From Phycisphaerae bacterium (GTDB lineage: Bacteria; Planctomycetota; Phycisphaerae; Tepidisphaerales; Tepidisphaeraceae): a stretch of 58,240 nucleotides of DNA. This document shows positions 26,688 through 44,342 of the stretch, piece after piece; positions within the stretch are counted from its first letter, which is position 1, and every line of letters begins with the position of its first letter. Both the position numbers and the translations under genes were made by a program. A model generated the notes under the pieces. It saw nothing but the letters and a program-made list of their open reading frames with translations, searched no databases and had not been told where the DNA came from. The stretch is taken from assembly GCA_025924315.1 (NCBI GenBank), contig JAICIO010000030.1:1-58240 (forward strand), read 5' to 3'.

Positions 26688-28064
26688 ATGCGTCAGTCGT
26701 ACATTCTGTGCCTGTTCGTCGCTCTTGTTGCGCTCGTGCCGAACGTCATCTTTGCGGAAATGACCTCGCCCACCGGTGGGAATCAACCGCATTCAAATCT
26801 GCAGCCGCTCGTGGGAATGAATTACATCGTTCGCACGAGCACAGGCGATATCGACAACCTTGGCGACATCAAACTCTTCGCCGGAGATTTCGCGCCGGCG
26901 GGTTGGACGTTCGCCAATGGAACACTGCTTTCCACCGCGACGAACCCAACCCTCTTCCAAAGGATTGGCACCACCTACGGCGGCAACGGCATTACGACAT
27001 TTGCTCTCCCTGACCTGCGCGATCGACTCGCGATGCACCAGGGCACTGGCGCCGACCTGACACCGCGCAGCCTCGGAGAACAGGTCGGCGAAATGTCCTC
27101 CGTTCTCACCGTGCAACAGATGCCCGCGCATGCTCACACGCTTTCCGGTGGCATCGCGACCAATTACGTCGGCGGGAACGCGCCGATGCCGATCATGCAA
27201 CCCTCGCTCGCGATTAATTACTCCATCGCCGCTGAGGGCATCTTTCCGACGTCCGGCAGTGGCAACGCAGCGCCGGGTGTGATGCTCGGCCAGGTCAGGA
27301 TGAACGCCAGTAATACGATCTCGAACAGTGATCTCCGAACCGACGGACAAACAATGGCGATCAGTCAGAACGACCAGCTTTACAGCATTTTAGGTACAAC
27401 GTACGGCGGCAATGGCACCACGTCGTTCAAACTGCCCGACCTGCGCGGGCGCGTTCCCCTCGGAGTGGGTCAGGGAACCGGATTGACGAATCGCGTCCTT
27501 GGGCAGCAGCTTGGCGCCGAGGACACAACCCTCACCTTGAATCAGCTTCCGGCCCATGCGCACTCCTACTCGGGCGGAATAACCGGCACGACCGGCGCCG
27601 GTCAGCCATACGACAACATGCAACCGTCGCTCGGGCTCAACTACATCATCGCAACGAACGGCGGGATCTATCCCAGCCGCTCCGGCGACACGCAGGACGG
27701 CATACCCATTCTCGGCGAGGTCGCGCTCTTCGCGGGTAATTTTGTCCCCCAAGGCTGGCATGCCTGCGACGGATCACTGCTCTCTATCCAGTCGAACACG
27801 GCGTTGTACTCGCTGCTCGGCGTCTATTACGGCGGCGACGGCCGAACCACTTTCGCCCTCCCCGACCTCCGCGGTAGTTCCGTCGCCGGGTCCGGCATCA
27901 ACTTCGAAATCGGCTCGGTCGATGGCTTCGAGACGAACACGCTGAACCTGAGCGAGCTCCCCGCCCATGAACATTTCGCCCCGGAGCCCGCAAGCATCGG
28001 GACAATCGGCATCGCGTCGCTCCTCTTCCTCTCACGCCGACGACGAGTGCCCATCGCACGATGA
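26688..28064 (+). CDS. Secreted triple tail-collar domain protein with PEP-CTERM tail
   Basis: 458 residues. After a signal peptide (ILCLFVALVALVPNVIFA) come three phage tail-collar (PF07484-type) repeats, each with GDIKLFAGxFxPxGW, a TTYGGNG(T/I)T(S/T)F segment and LPDLRxR: near residues 60-115, 205-260 and 340-395. Between them are HAHTLSGGI / HAHSYSGGI segments like those of MdpB proteins. It ends with the PEP-CTERM tail PEPASIGTIGIASLLFLSRRRR. GAGGGG precedes the ATG. The combination suggests a domesticated collar protein anchored or sorted by exosortase. Confidence 0.9.
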   Translation: MRQSYILCLFVALVALVPNVIFAEMTSPTGGNQPHSNLQPLVGMNYIVRTSTGDIDNLGDIKLFAGDFAPAGWTFANGTLLSTATNPTLFQRIGTTYGGNGITTFALPDLRDRLAMHQGTGADLTPRSLGEQVGEMSSVLTVQQMPAHAHTLSGGIATNYVGGNAPMPIMQPSLAINYSIAAEGIFPTSGSGNAAPGVMLGQVRMNASNTISNSDLRTDGQTMAISQNDQLYSILGTTYGGNGTTSFKLPDLRGRVPLGVGQGTGLTNRVLGQQLGAEDTTLTLNQLPAHAHSYSGGITGTTGAGQPYDNMQPSLGLNYIIATNGGIYPSRSGDTQDGIPILGEVALFAGNFVPQGWHACDGSLLSIQSNTALYSLLGVYYGGDGRTTFALPDLRGSSVAGSGINFEIGSVDGFETNTLNLSELPAHEHFAPEPASIGTIGIASLLFLSRRRRVPIAR

Positions 28065-28986: not shown

Positions 28987-30447
28987 CTATCTCGCTTCCC
29001 CGAGAAGAGGCAGTTGCACTTTGACACTGCGGTCCGCGCCGTCATCGAGACCGGGCGCCGATCCGATGAACTGCTTATCGATCTTCTTCACATTCCGCGT
29101 TCGCGCATTCGGATTCGGGACGAGGTCGGGTGAATCCATGCCGTCGTGGCGCTTCAGCACGTTGTAGTACTGATCGCGCTGCGCGGGGATCCAACCCGCG
29201 TCGCGAATCAATCGGCAGATTTCTCTTGCTTCGAGGCGATAGGTGGTGCCGGCGGCGCTGACGACGTTTTCTTCCATCATCACGCTGCCCATGTCGTTGG
29301 CGCCGAAGAACAGCGCCAGCTGGCCGATCTTCGGGCCCATCGTTACCCAGCTGCTCTGAAGGTTGGGAATGTTGTCTAAAAATAGACGCGAAATCGCAAG
29401 CGTGCGGAGATACTCGTCCGCCCCAGCCATCCGCACGACGCGGCCGCGGAGGATGTCGTCGTTGGTTGACTCGTCAAACGGGCCATAGACGTTCGGGTCC
29501 CATTCCTTTGCGCGCCCGAGCGGCGTGTTCTCGCGCTGGAAAGGCCAATGGATGAAAGCGGTATAGCAACCGAGCGACGAAGCGACGGAGCGACGAAGCG
29601 ACGAAGGGTGAGGGGGAAGCGATTTGGCGAAAACGCCAGGCCATCGGGCCATCACGCGACGAATCACGACGTCGGAATCTTTCCCTCCGTCGCTTCGTCG
29701 CTTCGTCGCTTCGTCGCTTAGCGCGTGTGCATAATCCTGCATGTCCCGCAGCGCCGACATATGCTCGATCCGTTCACGAACGAACTCAATATGCCCGATC
29801 AGCATCGTGCAGCTCGTGTTCATTCCCTCTTCGTGCGCGACGCGCATCACACGAAGCCAGTCGTCGCCCGTGCATTTGCCCAAGCCGATCCTTTTCCTCA
29901 CGCGCGGTGAGAAAATTTCCCCGCCGCCGCCGGGGATTGTCTGCAAACCAGCCGCGCGGAATCTTCGTATGATTTCGCGCACGTCGAGGTTGAAGAATCG
30001 CTCAAATTCGACAAACTCCGGGGGGCTGAAGGCGTGGATGTGAACGGTGGGGAAGTTCGTTCGGATGTAACGCAACAAACCTTCGTACCACTCGATCGGC
30101 AGGCGGTCGTTCATCCCGCCTTGCATGAGGATCTGCGTGCCGTTGATCGCGACGAGCTCGCGGATTTTCTCGCCGATCTTGTCGTACTCCAGCGTGTAGG
30201 CGTCGGCGTCTTCATGATCGCGGCGGAAGGCGCAAAACGTGCACTTGGCGGTGCAGACGTTGGTGTAGTTGATGTTGCGATCGATAACGTACGTGCGGTA
30301 ATCCTCTGGGTGCATCCGCTGGGTCACAGCACTCGCCCACGAGCCGAGATCGTGCAGCGAGGCGTTGTGGTGAAGTTCCAGCGCCTGCTCGTCGGTGAGG
30401 CGCGACTTGCCGGTGATAATGTCGTCGATGTTGAAAGAGAGCTTCAT
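28987..30447 (-). CDS. mqnC: Dehypoxanthine futalosine cyclase (menaquinone biosynthesis) with in-frame repeat insertion
   Basis: Radical SAM enzyme of the futalosine route to menaquinone, converting dehypoxanthine futalosine to cyclic dehypoxanthine futalosine. The cluster motif CTAKCTFC follows DRNINYTNV. The C-terminal half, SSWVTMGPKIGQLALFFGANDMGSVMMEENVVSAAG, is diagnostic of MqnC rather than MqnE. At 486 residues it is longer than the usual ~370: about 49 residues between RDMQDYAH and CYTAFIHWPF come from an inserted palindromic element (29573..29720), and ~40 extra residues form the C-terminus. Other mqn genes are not adjacent. Confidence 0.9.
   Translation of the reverse strand: MKLSFNIDDIITGKSRLTDEQALELHHNASLHDLGSWASAVTQRMHPEDYRTYVIDRNINYTNVCTAKCTFCAFRRDHEDADAYTLEYDKIGEKIRELVAINGTQILMQGGMNDRLPIEWYEGLLRYIRTNFPTVHIHAFSPPEFVEFERFFNLDVREIIRRFRAAGLQTIPGGGGEIFSPRVRKRIGLGKCTGDDWLRVMRVAHEEGMNTSCTMLIGHIEFVRERIEHMSALRDMQDYAHALSDEATKRRSDGGKDSDVVIRRVMARWPGVFAKSLPPHPSSLRRSVASSLGCYTAFIHWPFQRENTPLGRAKEWDPNVYGPFDESTNDDILRGRVVRMAGADEYLRTLAISRLFLDNIPNLQSSWVTMGPKIGQLALFFGANDMGSVMMEENVVSAAGTTYRLEAREICRLIRDAGWIPAQRDQYYNVLKRHDGMDSPDLVPNPNARTRNVKKIDKQFIGSAPGLDDGADRSVKVQLPLLGEAR
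29573..29720. repeat. Palindromic element inserted in frame within mqnC
   Basis: The left arm (29573-29609) consists of GCGACGAA/GCGACGGA units, and the right arm (29684-29720) is its inverted counterpart (GTCGCTTC units). The arms match over ~35 bases around a 74-base core. Within mqnC it is read as SDEATKRRSDGG through HPSSLRRSVASS with no stop codon, which keeps the frame. Confidence 0.8.
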
Positions 30448-30539: not shown

Positions 30540-31094
30540 ATGACGTTCAAGGTTCAACCACCGATGGCCGTTCGTCACGCTATTTTGACGATTGCGGGCA
30601 AGGATCGCCCCGGCATCCTCGACGAGATCTCGCAATACCTCTTCGAGCGCGGCGGAAACATCCAGGACAGCCGCTCCGTTTCCCTCGGCGGGCAGTTTTC
30701 GATGCTCTTTCAGATTACCGGCACCGAAGACGCGATCGCGAAGATCCAGCGCGATGTGCCACTGCTTGCAGAACAGAGCCGTTTGCAGGTACAGCTGAGC
30801 GATCTCGAGTCCACGGCGCAATCCACCATCGCCACATTCCCCTACCACTTCACCGCCACGGGGAAAGATCAGGCGGGCGTCGTGCACCGCATCTCGCACC
30901 TGATGCGTGTGCTGAATATCAACATCGAAGACATGCACGTGCACGTGGACCACGCCGACGATCCGGAGCTCGCGCGCTATCGCGTGGAGCTGGATCTGGC
31001 GATCCCGAGAAACATCCCCATCACGATGCTCCGCGATTATTTCAATCACCTCTGCGGCGAGATGCAGATGGATTGGACGCTGCGGGAAGTGTGA
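30540..31094 (+). CDS. GcvR-like protein with two ACT domains
   Basis: 184 residues made of two ACT domains: AILTIAGKDRPGILDEISQYL (N-terminal) and YHFTATGKDQAGVVHRISHLM (C-terminal). This is the glycine-cleavage repressor GcvR layout, where ACT domains bind an amino acid and modulate a partner regulator. No gcv gene is in the window, so the amino acid and target are inferred only. It is divergent from mqnC with a 92-base gap. ATG 30564 is an alternative start. Confidence 0.85.
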   Translation: MTFKVQPPMAVRHAILTIAGKDRPGILDEISQYLFERGGNIQDSRSVSLGGQFSMLFQITGTEDAIAKIQRDVPLLAEQSRLQVQLSDLESTAQSTIATFPYHFTATGKDQAGVVHRISHLMRVLNINIEDMHVHVDHADDPELARYRVELDLAIPRNIPITMLRDYFNHLCGEMQMDWTLREV

Positions 31095-31152: not shown

Positions 31153-32805
31153 CTAGCGCGTCCTTATATAAAGAAACGTCTCTTCCGGCTGATCGTCGAA
31201 ATCGCCGTCGAGAATCGCTTTACACGAACGAACGGTCTCGTCGCGTCGCACCGAGACGCCCGGACGCTTGCTGAACCGCTCCGCCACGTAAAACGGTTGG
31301 GTGAAGAAGGCTTCGAGCTTCCGCGCCCGCTCGACGATCACGCGATTCTCATTCGATAGTTCGGCCATTCGTCGCGGGACGAATTCCTTCAGTCTCTCCG
31401 AGGCGCGGGCATTCGCGTGGTGCGCCAGGTACTCGAAGAACTTCGCGTCATACATCAGTTCGCGCGCCTGCCCGATCGTCTCGCGAACGCGCTTGGCCAC
31501 TTCGACGTGCTCGCGCCCCACGACCGATTCATCCAGCGCGCGGCTGTGCGAAATCAACGCATCGATCGCCGGCCACAGTCCTTGCACCGCGCGCACGGGC
31601 GAGAGGTAAATCATTGAGTCGAACAGATCCGTATCGCTTGCAAAATCGGGATCGGTTGCGCGATCGTTGATCATCCAGAACACCTGCACGTTGCCGACCG
31701 TGTCGCCGGGATAACCCTCTTCGATCGTCAGCATGTCCTGCACCGCGTTGATGTCCCCGCGGCGCGAGGGGCAGAACATCGAAACGCCGTCCATCGAATT
31801 TTCCAGCCGGTGAAACAATTCCTGCACGAGCACGATTCGCCCGACGCCTTGCATCGAAAAGATGCCAACTGACCCGCCGGCAACGAGCGGGCAGAGCAGA
31901 TCAATCACCTTGATGCCCGTTTCGATTGTTTTCGGCGGCGCGCTGGATCGGGGCGAGAGAATGCGCACTGTTTCTTCGAACTCGTCGTCGGCGATCGGTT
32001 TTACGTGCCCGATTTCAGGCGCGTTCGTCAGCTGAAGCCCGGGCTTCCAGCGCGCCCGTTCCGTTACGACGGCGCAAATCATTCCATCCCCCTTCCGCTG
32101 AACCACCTTTGCCCAACCGTCTTCGCTCGACGTCAGCGAATCGAGAATATGAGGCATTTCCCCGCGGAATTGGGCTTCGATCACCGGACCGCGCACCGAA
32201 AGAATCTCGCCGACGTTCTGTGCGAAGCCATCGGACAACGCGTTGCTGTTGAAAGCTTTCGCGACCATGTGAATCATCCTCCGCTTGAGTTGTTGACGGG
32301 CCGAATGAAGACGGTTGTTGACGATCATGACCGGTATGCCGAGAAACGCCGCGATCTGCTTTTGCGATCGGCCGTGCAGGTAGTACAGCGCGATCGCCTG
32401 CCGAAGTGGTTGCGGAAGCTGTGCGATCGCACGGGTGACCGCGTTTGCCTCTTCGCGATGAACGAGCCGCGAATCCGGCGGCGTATCGTCCGAGGGCACA
32501 TCGAAATCGACGTCCGCTGAGCAGGCCGGCCTCGCACGGCGCAGAATGCGATGACATCGATGATGTGCGATGCGGCGCAGCCACGCCGGCAGCGCGTCCG
32601 CGTTCTTCAGCTTCGCGATATTGGAAAATGCGATGAACAGCGTCTCCTGCGTCACGTCCTGCGCCAAGTGAAAATCGCCCAGCATGCCGAACGCGTAACC
32701 AAGCACGAGGTTCTGATATTCGCGCGTGATCTGCGTAAACGCGGCCGAATTCCCGGCCTTCGCCTCGTCGACGAGCTCCCGCAAACTGGTTTGAATCGCG
32801 TCCAT
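31153..32805 (-). CDS. ECF sigma factor fused to an F1-ATPase beta-like domain with degenerate nucleotide site
   Basis: 550 residues in one open frame. Residues ~15-90 are sigma region 2 (AQDVTQETLFIAF), and ~125-178 are region 4 with its helix-turn-helix (RSQKQIAAFLGIPVMIVNNRLHSARQQLKRR). From ~196 to 550 the protein follows the F1 ATP synthase beta subunit: N-terminal barrel VGEILSVRGPVIEAQF, TGIKVIDLLCPLVAGG, and C-terminal VERARKLEAFFTQPFYVAERFS with SCKAILDGDFDDQPEETF. The Walker A equivalent is SMQGVGRIV (beta: GGAGVGKTV), so Lys and Thr are lost. The catalytic-Glu region reads CPSRRGDIN, and DELSEED reads AELSNEN. Hence an ATPase is unlikely; a regulatory or protein-binding role is inferred. 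It is divergent from L-lactate dehydrogenase (90 bp). Confidence 0.85.
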   Translation of the reverse strand: MDAIQTSLRELVDEAKAGNSAAFTQITREYQNLVLGYAFGMLGDFHLAQDVTQETLFIAFSNIAKLKNADALPAWLRRIAHHRCHRILRRARPACSADVDFDVPSDDTPPDSRLVHREEANAVTRAIAQLPQPLRQAIALYYLHGRSQKQIAAFLGIPVMIVNNRLHSARQQLKRRMIHMVAKAFNSNALSDGFAQNVGEILSVRGPVIEAQFRGEMPHILDSLTSSEDGWAKVVQRKGDGMICAVVTERARWKPGLQLTNAPEIGHVKPIADDEFEETVRILSPRSSAPPKTIETGIKVIDLLCPLVAGGSVGIFSMQGVGRIVLVQELFHRLENSMDGVSMFCPSRRGDINAVQDMLTIEEGYPGDTVGNVQVFWMINDRATDPDFASDTDLFDSMIYLSPVRAVQGLWPAIDALISHSRALDESVVGREHVEVAKRVRETIGQARELMYDAKFFEYLAHHANARASERLKEFVPRRMAELSNENRVIVERARKLEAFFTQPFYVAERFSKRPGVSVRRDETVRSCKAILDGDFDDQPEETFLYIRTR

Positions 32806-32895
32806 TGGCCTCTACCGTAAAGTGCCGCCTTGCGGGCCGGCGCTTTGCGGAAAACTCATGCATTTGTCGAAGGACTTGCGTAAATTGTCGCAGGT

Positions 32896-40850: not shown

Positions 40851-40893
40851 CGGATCGTGCCTTTGCGCGTAGAACGTGCTGAGGAGGATCTTC

Positions 40894-42573
40894 ATGCGCC
40901 TTTGTTTTGTTCTTTTCACGCTTGTGTTCACGACTTTTGCGTCCGCACTCACAATCGTTCGCGACGGAAGGAGCGATTACACGATCGTTCTGCCCGTGGA
41001 GGCGTCGCCCTCGCAAAAACATGCCGCCGAAGAGTTGCAGAAGTTCATCGAGCAGATGTCCGGCGCAAAACTGCCGATTGCGAGCGCGGCTTCGGGTCGC
41101 GCGATCATTCTCGGGCAGAATGCGGATGGACTCGGCGACGAAGGCTTCAAACTCAAAACCGATGGCGACAACCTCATCATCGCCGGCAGCAAAGTTCGCG
41201 GGACGATGTACGGAGTTTATGGGTTGCTCGATCGGCTCGGCGTGCGGTGGTTTACGTCGACGATTTCGCGGGTGCCAAAGATGGCAACGATCGAGCTGCC
41301 GTCGCTCGATGAGACGCAAATCCCCGCGTTCGAATACCGCGAGATGAACTTCAAAGAGGCGATGGAGCGCAATTGGGCGGCGCGCAATCGCGTGAACGGC
41401 GCGGGTTGCGATCTCGATGCGTCCGTCGGTGGAAAGATCACGTACTTTCCGTTCGTGCATAGTTTTGAGCAGCTGATTCCGCGCGATCTGTACAAGACAC
41501 ATCCGGAATACTTTCCGCTGGTGAACGGCAAGCGCAAGGACGGCTACGTCCAGCGCTGCTTGAGCAATCCGGATGTGCTGAAGCTGGCGATTGCGAAGGT
41601 GGAAGAATGGATCAAAGAACATCCTGAAGCGATGATCTATTCCGTCTCGCAGAATGACTGCGGCGACTGGTGCCAATGCGACAAATGTCAGGCGCTGATC
41701 AAGAAGTACGGCTCGATCAGCGGCGAGTACATCTGGTTCGTGAACCAGGTCGCGGCGGCGATTGAGAAGGACCATCCCGACAAGCTGATCGACACGCTCG
41801 CGTATCAGTTCACCGAGGCCGCCCCGAAGAACATCGCCCCGAGGAAGAATGTGCGCGTGCGCTTGTGCCCAATCAGCGTGTGCGAAGCACATCCGTATGC
41901 CGAGTGCATGCATCCGAACACGAAGAACTTCATGAAGGCGCTGAGCAACTGGGGCGCGATCACCAACACGCTGTACATCTGGCATTACAACACGGATTTC
42001 GCGAACTATTTGATGCCGTTTCCAGACTTCAATGAGTTTCCCGCGGACCTGAAGTTGTACAAAAAGAGCGGCGTGAAGGGCGTCTTCTTCGAAGGGGCGT
42101 ACAACACGTTCGGCTCATCGGATTCAGAGTTGCGCTCGTACGTGATGGCGAAGTGCCTGTGGAATGAGAAGGAAGATGCGGACAAGCTCGTGACGGAATG
42201 GATGCAGGGCGTCTACGGGCCGGGATGGAAGCCGATGCGTCAATGGTTCGATCTGCTGCATCAAAAGGTCCGCGATCCGAATAAGCATTTCTTTATTTAC
42301 GATGGGCCGGGGGTTTATTACCTGAGCGGCGATACGACGACAAAGGGCGATCAGCTCTTTGATCAGGCGGAGAAGCTGGCGGCGACGGATGCTTCGGCGC
42401 TGCATGAAATTCAAAAGGCGCGGTTGTGTTTGCGTTATGTTGAGATCGCTCAGAAAGGCGCGGACAACGCGACGCTCGATCAGTTCGCGAAAGATTGCAA
42501 GTCGTTTGGCGTGACGATGCTGACCGAAGGATGGGACACCGATACGTGGATCAATTCGAAGCGGAAGAAATGA
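40894..42573 (+). CDS. Secreted DUF4838 glycosidase-like protein (copy 1)
   Basis: 559 residues. The start ATG 40894 has AGGAGG upstream and gives the signal peptide LCFVLFTLVFTTFASA. The N-terminal ~110 residues resemble the GH67/GH20 non-catalytic domain (AAEELQKFIEQMSGAKLPI, RGTMYGVYGLLDRLGVRWF). The core is DUF4838 (SVSQNDCGDWCQCDKCQAL), a TIM-barrel-like domain with a conserved acidic/cysteine patch. It is likely an exported glycan-active enzyme, but catalysis is unproven. A close copy follows. Confidence 0.88.
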   Translation: MRLCFVLFTLVFTTFASALTIVRDGRSDYTIVLPVEASPSQKHAAEELQKFIEQMSGAKLPIASAASGRAIILGQNADGLGDEGFKLKTDGDNLIIAGSKVRGTMYGVYGLLDRLGVRWFTSTISRVPKMATIELPSLDETQIPAFEYREMNFKEAMERNWAARNRVNGAGCDLDASVGGKITYFPFVHSFEQLIPRDLYKTHPEYFPLVNGKRKDGYVQRCLSNPDVLKLAIAKVEEWIKEHPEAMIYSVSQNDCGDWCQCDKCQALIKKYGSISGEYIWFVNQVAAAIEKDHPDKLIDTLAYQFTEAAPKNIAPRKNVRVRLCPISVCEAHPYAECMHPNTKNFMKALSNWGAITNTLYIWHYNTDFANYLMPFPDFNEFPADLKLYKKSGVKGVFFEGAYNTFGSSDSELRSYVMAKCLWNEKEDADKLVTEWMQGVYGPGWKPMRQWFDLLHQKVRDPNKHFFIYDGPGVYYLSGDTTTKGDQLFDQAEKLAATDASALHEIQKARLCLRYVEIAQKGADNATLDQFAKDCKSFGVTMLTEGWDTDTWINSKRKK

Positions 42574-42641: not shown

Positions 42642-44342
42642 ATGACTATGCTCAGATCGCTCTTCACATGTTTCTTTCTCGGTGCCTTCTGCGCGACAAC
42701 CTATGCGCTCACACTCGTTCGCGATGGGAGAAGCGATTATGTGCTCGTTCTGCCCGCGAAGGCTTCACTGTCACAACAGAGGGCAGCGAACGAGCTGCAG
42801 AGTTACATCGAGCAGATGTCTGGTGCGAAGCTTCCGATCGTGATGAATGCCACTTCGAACCACGCGATCATTCTCGGTCAAAAGGAGGATGGGCTTGGGA
42901 ATGAGGGATTCAAAATAAAAACCGATGGCGACAATCTCATCATCGCCGGCAGCGAGGTGCGTGGGACGATGTACGGGGCGGATGAACTGCTCGAAAAGCT
43001 CGGCGTGCGCTGGTTTACCGCGTCGGTCACGCGTGTGCCCAAAATGAAGACCATTGAGATTCCGCCGCTCGATGAGACGCAGATTCCGTCGTTCGAATAT
43101 CGCGAGCCCTATTTCGTCGAGGCATGGGACAAGGACTGGGCGGCGCACAATCGCGTCAATGGATCTTCGCCGCATCTCGACGCGTCGGTCGGCGGGAAGT
43201 TTTCGTATTATCCATTCTGCCACACGTTCGACATGCTGGTTCCGCAGGATCTGTTCAAAACGCATCCCGAGTATTTTCCACTGATCAAAGGCAAGCGCAC
43301 CAGCGGATATGTGCAGCGGTGCTTGACGAATCCGGATGTGCTGAAGTTGTCGATTGAGACCGTTGAGAAATGGATGAAGGAGCATCCGGAGGCGTCGATT
43401 TACTCAGTCACGCAGAACGACACCGGCAACTGGTGCGAGTGCGATAAGTGCAAGGCGATCCAGGACAAGTATGGCGGGATCTCAGGCTACAACCTCTGGT
43501 TCGTGAATCAGGTCGCGGCGGCGGTTGAAAAGGATCATCCCGATAAATTGATCGACACGTTCGCGTATCAGGACACCGAGCCCGCGCCGAAGAACATCGC
43601 CCCGCGGAAGAATGTGCGCGTGCGAATCTGCCCGATCTACGCGTGCGAGGCGCATCCGTACGAACACGACAGCGACCCGGGTACGAAAAAGTTTCTCAAG
43701 GCGCTCGATGACTGGAGCACGATCACCGACACGCTCTACGTGTGGCATTACTGCACGAACTTCCAGCACTATTTGATGCCCTTCGCGGACTTCAAGCAGT
43801 TTCCGGATAGCATTCGACTGTACAAACAGCACAAGGTGCGAGGCGTGTTTCTCGAAGGCGACTATGCGGGTCTGGGCGGCGGATCGGACGCGGAGCTGCG
43901 CTCGTATGTGATGGCGAAGTGTCTGTGGAATGACCGCGTTGACTCAGACGCGCTGGTGACCGAGTGGATGCAGGGCGTGTACGGCGCGGGATGGAAGCCG
44001 ATGCGGCAGTGGTTCGATCTCCTGCATGAGAAGGCGAGCGACCCGTCGCATCATCTGCATGTCTATGAAGGCATCGCGTTTTATCTGACGGACGATGTGC
44101 TGACCAAAGGCGACCAATATTTTAACGAGGCCGAGAAACTCGCCGCGAGCCATTCCGCGGCGATGAAGGCGCTGCGGAAGGCGCGATTGTGGCTGCGTTA
44201 CACGAAGATCGAGAAGCACCCCGGCGATGCAAAAGAGCTGGCGGATTTCGTGAAGACATGCCGCGAGTTTGGCATTTCGAATGTCGCGGAGTCCAAGTCG
44301 CTGGACACGTGGGCTGCGGAGAAGGCGAAGACGTCTTCGTAG
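42642..44342 (+). CDS. Secreted DUF4838 glycosidase-like protein (copy 2)
   Basis: 566 residues, colinear with the preceding gene over its whole length: signal peptide (LFTCFFLGAFCATTYA), GH67N-like domain, core DUF4838 (SVTQNDTGNWCECDKCKAI), and the C-terminal helical section (TEWMQGVYGAGWKPMRQWFDLLH). It probably arose by tandem duplication. Its TAG stop (44340-44342) is formed by the GTAG end of a REP element, so the tail KTSS has been set by the insertion. Confidence 0.88.
   Translation: MTMLRSLFTCFFLGAFCATTYALTLVRDGRSDYVLVLPAKASLSQQRAANELQSYIEQMSGAKLPIVMNATSNHAIILGQKEDGLGNEGFKIKTDGDNLIIAGSEVRGTMYGADELLEKLGVRWFTASVTRVPKMKTIEIPPLDETQIPSFEYREPYFVEAWDKDWAAHNRVNGSSPHLDASVGGKFSYYPFCHTFDMLVPQDLFKTHPEYFPLIKGKRTSGYVQRCLTNPDVLKLSIETVEKWMKEHPEASIYSVTQNDTGNWCECDKCKAIQDKYGGISGYNLWFVNQVAAAVEKDHPDKLIDTFAYQDTEPAPKNIAPRKNVRVRICPIYACEAHPYEHDSDPGTKKFLKALDDWSTITDTLYVWHYCTNFQHYLMPFADFKQFPDSIRLYKQHKVRGVFLEGDYAGLGGGSDAELRSYVMAKCLWNDRVDSDALVTEWMQGVYGAGWKPMRQWFDLLHEKASDPSHHLHVYEGIAFYLTDDVLTKGDQYFNEAEKLAASHSAAMKALRKARLWLRYTKIEKHPGDAKELADFVKTCREFGISNVAESKSLDTWAAEKAKTSS

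Follow-up and report, generated by a model that had tools for sequence, protein, structure and literature searches.

An ECF sigma factor joined to an F1-ATPase beta-derived pseudo-enzyme domain in distantly related planctomycetes

The window, a 58,240-nucleotide stretch of a Phycisphaerae contig, carries on its minus strand a frame of 550 codons that runs without interruption through an ECF sigma factor and a domain derived from the F1-ATPase beta subunit (Table 1). The ORF list and the translation bear out this single frame, as read in the first-pass annotation, which gave no strand, and the plus strand over the same positions is broken by stops. The neighbouring genes are mqnC (28990-30447, minus strand), an ACT-domain protein (30540-31091) and an L-lactate dehydrogenase (from 32896 on). 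The dehydrogenase had been proposed as a candidate target of the sigma factor. The window locus shares no neighbours with the loci of the three homologous fusions described below (G042, G027 and G065), and scans, which are weak for such signals, found neither a sigma-70 nor an AAC...CGT-type signature upstream of the sigma gene or of the dehydrogenase (gap 32806-32895). As synteny and promoter scans gave nothing, only adjacency speaks for this target, which we regard as unsupported.

Three further features of the window were observed. The radical-SAM gene mqnC contains, between its two profile matches, an in-frame dispersed element of about 160 bp (29560-29720), whose inverted arms of 36-41 bp recur on contigs C48, C102, C125 and C195. 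At 26688-28061 (plus strand) lies the gene of a secreted-looking protein that contains three phage tail collar domains and ends, by eye, in what seems a PEP-CTERM-type sorting tail. A tandem duplicate of a secreted-looking protein of about 565 aa, its copies 64% identical, occupies 40876-42570 and 42642-44339 (plus strand).

Table 1. Features of the sigma-F1 beta fusion gene in the window
Feature	Residues	Positions	Strand	Basis
Whole gene, ECF sigma + F1-ATPase beta-derived pseudo-enzyme domain (550 aa)		31156..32805 (stop codon 31153-31155)	-	ORF, translation; homologous fusions L007, L008, L009
Sigma region 2	28-92	32530..32724	-	Pfam Sigma70_r2, 1.5e-12
Sigma region 4	122-173	32287..32442	-	Pfam Sigma70_r4_2, 2.1e-12
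Linker, like that of PheS/HEAT/T2SSF sigma fusions ('RRM..MV......P...F')	174-195	32221..32286	-	Alignment
F1 beta-like N-terminal beta barrel, least conserved part	196-290	31936..32220	-	Alignment, subdomain identities, model strands
Degenerate P-loop FSMQGVGRIV (Lys to Arg, Thr to Ile)	316-325	31831..31860	-	Residue mapping
Deletion scar	~345-365	31711..31773	-	Alignment, residue mapping; low pLDDT stretch in models
Trp at adenine-pocket Tyr345 position	411	31573..31575	-	Residue mapping
Insertion of ~21 residues preceding the DELSEED-equivalent AELSNEN	~459-479	31369..31431	-	Alignment
Adenine-pocket segment FYVAERF (Phe418, Ala421, Phe424 equivalents kept)	505-511	31273..31293	-	Residue mapping
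F1 beta-like C-terminal helical domain	426-550	31156..31530	-	AtpD identity; model pLDDT mostly 70-97

In the window protein the Pfam domains Sigma70_r2, Sigma70_r4_2 and ATP-synt_ab (2.2e-9, starting at residue 297) all exceed their cut-offs, and sigma and ATP-synthase domains are the only ones that do so. Sigma regions 2 and 4 are found and region 3 is absent, which is the domain composition of ECF (group 4) sigma factors. The sigma domains are also above cut-off in G042 and G027, and a role at RNA polymerase and promoter is predicted for them. The tail matches the NCBIfam atpD model (TIGR01039) at 9.8e-48, with 163.1 bits against an equivalog cut-off of 462.85, which it does not reach, and the best PDB sequences for the protein are F1 beta subunits (~1e-41). 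SctN and FliI profiles are far weaker (best 48 bits, against 166 for atpD) and the Rho profile is absent from the matches listed, so that neither replaces AtpD as the best profile; nothing points to the docking on Rho-like hexamers that had been suggested. These matches, together with the homologous fusions, confirm the first reading of the gene as that of an ECF sigma factor with a degenerate F1 beta module attached.

AlphaFold models had a pLDDT of 67 and a pTM of 0.56 for the full-length protein, and 79 and 0.70 for the F1 beta part alone. The barrel and the C-terminal bundle are modelled confidently, the scar is undefined, and the models are weak where the RecA-like sheet is partly deleted. 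As the sigma part is poorly modelled (pLDDT mostly under 60), its arrangement relative to the F1 beta part cannot be read from the model. The top structural matches are F1 beta chains (Foldseek E 1e-23; VIA-align Z 23-26, with an rmsd of about 12 Å that reflects shifted domains) and agree with a fold of barrel, incomplete RecA-like core and helical bundle; this match is no independent proof of the fold, because the models were themselves built from alignments of AtpD.

The same genome encodes a separate, ordinary AtpD (contig C29) with intact GGAGLGKT, GERTREG and LLFIDNIFRF motifs. The fusion tail keeps the barrel, the P-loop segment and the C-terminal helical domain in AtpD order, with the lowest identity to AtpD in the barrel (24%) and the highest likeness in the C-terminal stretch, where about 68 residues (480-547) are 50% identical to the protein of its own genome. 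It differs from AtpD in lacking about 93 residues, including the catalytic Glu and Walker B, in the loss of the P-loop Thr, and in an extra insertion of about 21 residues before the DELSEED position, which the window protein has in common with G065 and G042; G027 is shorter in this region and has lost the DELSEED equivalent.

A search of 392 genomes of the phylum, along a line the first-pass annotation had proposed, found the same fusion in three others, G042, G027 and G065, which belong to classes other than that of the window genome. The window protein is 37% identical to that of G042 over residues 28-547 and 35% identical to that of G027. In G065 the sigma and F1 beta halves lie head to tail, separated at the junction by an assembly gap of ten Ns. 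The junction is the same in all four genomes, and the frame is open in three and broken in the fourth only at this gap. The proteins of G042 and G027 are 57% identical, and by codon position their genes differ at 31% (first), 24% (second) and 57% (third); between homologues, changes at third positions outnumber those at second positions by a factor of about 1.5 to 2.4, hence the protein is under constraint.

In a likelihood tree the F1 beta parts are monophyletic (support 100/99) and stand on long branches outside 31 AtpD sequences. Together with the common scars, this clade indicates that the F1 beta parts arose once and then evolved independently for a long time, rather than being a recent copy; a recent duplication of the genome's own AtpD is ruled out, as all four F1 beta parts branch together outside all AtpD. 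No further members were found in a second phylum sample of 394 genomes (overlapping the first), in the class (397 genomes) or family (25 other genomes) of the window organism, or in the small classes of G042, G027 and G065. Of two wider contig scans, the first gave no matches at all and the second no sigma fusion among 80 loci taken from the matches listed. The weak matches G576 and G275 were rejected, both being ordinary beta subunits. The fusion is thus rare and patchy in the genomes searched. Because three further, distantly related planctomycetes have conserved it, we consider the joined protein a real kind of regulator, apparently undescribed.

For the anatomy of the tail, residue numbers such as Glu188 are those of bovine F1 beta; equivalents were mapped by motif, and we take the bovine numbering of AtpD-equivalent positions from general knowledge. 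About 93 residues (77 + 16 in the alignment) are missing from all four homologues, from the strand after the P-loop helix onward, and with them the equivalents of Glu188, Arg189, Glu192, Asp256, Asn257 and Arg260; another gap, of about 24-27 residues, lies before ETGIK in the alignment with AtpD. The tail is therefore not the near full-length F1 beta domain it had been taken for, having lost about 93 residues from its nucleotide domain and some 25 ahead of ETGIK. Likewise, CPSRRGDIN, previously read as the catalytic-Glu loop, is the scar of a deletion that took both this loop and Walker B. The earlier identification of Walker A with SMQGVGRIV and of DELSEED with AELSNEN was right, according to residue mapping and alignment.

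The P-loop keeps G159, G161 and V164 in all four homologues, position 162 is Lys or Arg, and Thr163 is replaced throughout (I, I, V, M). That of the window protein is the most degenerate, with Gly156 changed to Ser, Lys162 to Arg and Thr163 to Ile. Measured against the Walker A pattern GxxxxGK[ST], the catalytic Glu and the Walker B Asp, every homologue has T163 replaced and E188 and D256 deleted, and because the catalytic residues are lost in all four, F1-style catalysis by the tail would not be expected. Tyr311 is Trp in all four. Around the base, position 345 is always aromatic (Trp or Tyr), Pro346 and Phe418 are invariant, Ala421 is kept in three and Phe424 in two. Judged from these residues, the nucleotide pocket retains its base side largely or in part, and its Mg/phosphate/catalytic side is gone. 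The equivalent of the catch-loop Asp319 is also invariant among the four.

The sigma factor can be compared with known ECFs bearing extensions. At least 26 non-canonical ECF groups have N- or C-terminal extensions that replace the missing anti-sigma factor and act by ligand-driven conformational change, protein contact or proteolysis (PMC8999054). They typically occur without an anti-sigma factor, the extension taking over the sensory or regulatory role (PMC8999054). The window protein is like them in its sigma2-sigma4 core without sigma3, in having no adjoining anti-sigma gene seen, and in a large C-terminal domain presumed to be an in-cis regulator (PMC8999054). Such a domain is present in all four genomes, and among the neighbours scanned at the four loci, which at the window locus include the adjoining ACT-domain and dehydrogenase genes, none is anti-sigma-like. 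The difference lies in the module, since ECF41, ECF42, ECF57 and ECF238 carry a SnoaL-like, TPR, WD40 or Cys-rich extension, whereas the window protein has a 365-aa pseudo-enzyme derived from F1-ATPase beta, with no SnoaL-like, TPR or WD40 domain above Pfam cut-off and no Cys-rich tail. The first-pass annotation knew of no F1 beta module on an ECF sigma factor, and our search of open-access papers likewise gave none that describes a sigma factor with F1 beta or PheS attached. An ECF with a regulatory extension is thus a known kind, of which the F1 beta extension appears to be a new variant.

According to Pfam and alignments, the proteins with the closest sigma part are fusions as well, in which sigma4 is followed by a similar linker. 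Two of them, L010 and L013, join an ECF sigma factor to a PheS-like class II synthetase core (tRNA-synt_2d, 1.5e-19 and 8e-27), a sister architecture that is apparently undescribed, L012 is a sigma-HEAT fusion and L011 a sigma-T2SSF one. Somewhat more distant relatives carry ankyrin repeats (contigs C17, C90 and C1 of the window genome, and G171; most called by reading the sequence) or, in G198, a second sigma factor of flagellar type, likewise called by reading. These sister fusions (PheS-like, HEAT, T2SSF, and the ankyrin loci L036, L167, L168 and L171) have a similar sigma domain, and those with PheS, HEAT and T2SSF share the linker of the window protein, from which all differ in bearing C-terminal modules other than F1 beta. 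A common domain-swapping sigma lineage is no more than suggested, since the sigma-tree grouping of the fusions is weak (83/59). The window genome has about 50 region-4 matches.

Several of these loci deserve separate mention. The sigma-PheS fusions lie at L010:859-2199 (minus strand) and L013:853-2136 (minus strand) in two planctomycetes, both with the FHQ motif kept, and in L011:1423-2727 (plus strand) the ECF sigma factor is joined to one type II secretion F (T2SSF) domain only. The ankyrin-bearing sigma factors of the window genome are at L036:7619-9130 (minus strand), L167:22-1503 (minus strand) and L168:2008-3699 (plus strand); the first has what seems, by eye and without confirmation by Pfam, a GyrI-like (AraC effector-binding) end. 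In G198, a double-sigma protein (L170:1672-3198, minus strand) appears, by sequence reading, to combine an ECF with a second complete sigma factor of the flagellar (FliA/WhiG) type.

Based on these observations, we think it probable that the window protein is a one-component ECF sigma factor whose fused, non-catalytic pseudo-F1 beta tail serves as an in-cis regulatory domain for sigma2 and sigma4. This is the simplest reading, the logic of extended ECFs with a new domain. By analogy with the extensions of ECF41, ECF42 and ECF238, the tail would gate the access of the sigma factor to RNA polymerase or to the promoter. Energy or nucleotide sensing by the tail is possible, and we tentatively suggest, with more doubt than confidence, that a nucleotide (ADP, ATP or AMP, for example) acts as the signal and is not hydrolysed when bound. 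It would be held between the kept P-loop glycines and the aromatic base pocket, and transcription of the regulon would respond to adenylate status. Since the Mg, phosphate and catalytic residues are selectively lost and the base pocket is partly kept, we slightly favour such binding over protein docking. On the other hand, two homologues deviate at F424 and one at A421, the kept residues could be structural, and the P-loop of the window protein is so degenerate that its nucleotide affinity may be nil.

It is also conceivable, though we hold it unlikely, that the tail docks on a protein with which the real beta subunit interacts (F1 alpha, gamma/epsilon, an assembly or an inhibitor protein), the sigma factor sensing free subunits or the state of the ATP synthase by protein contact instead of through a nucleotide. 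The barrel and the C-terminal domain, the parts that touch neighbouring subunits, are kept, as are the catch-loop Asp and the strongly AtpD-like C-terminal stretch, and TPR extensions of ECF42 have been proposed to act through protein contact (PMC8999054). However, conservation is lowest in the barrel, the DELSEED motif has not been retained and is mostly gone from G027, the insertion alters the bottom domain, and the large deletion takes part of the catalytic face and likely interface material. Far less probable is an integrated target mimic, in which the tail would be a bait for an inhibitor, toxin or phage protein attacking F1 beta, the PheS-like sister domains would be baits for attackers of PheRS, and binding of the attacker would free the sigma factor for protection. 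The nearest sigma relatives do bear another essential-enzyme domain and the fusions are patchily distributed, but the idea is drawn purely from analogy with integrated decoys, the HEAT, ankyrin and T2SSF modules of other relatives fit plain interaction modules, and no defence genes were noticed at the fusion loci. Hardly credible at all is read-through or mis-assembly of two genes, or a decaying pseudogene, as the degenerate active site and long F1 beta branches might suggest: three independent fusions exclude the missing stop that had been raised as an alternative, the split in G065 is a gap of 10 Ns, and the common junction and scars, the codon-position divergence and the otherwise open frames all speak against it.

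Returning to in-cis regulation by the tail, its widest form is one about which we are rather doubtful: the sigma factor would read adenylate (energy) status via the pseudo-F1 beta domain, within a planctomycete ECF lineage that recruits the cores of essential enzymes (F1 beta, PheS) as sensors, so that, with no anti-sigma factor involved, the specificity of RNA polymerase would follow the state of the core machinery. The fusion itself links, within one polypeptide, the fold of the ATP-synthase catalytic subunit to transcription initiation. If the tail senses a nucleotide or parts of the ATP synthase, this would be a very direct wiring from energy state to promoter choice. The family as a whole suggests that planctomycete ECF sigma factors may be a domain-swapping platform, which reuses housekeeping enzymes as regulatory modules.
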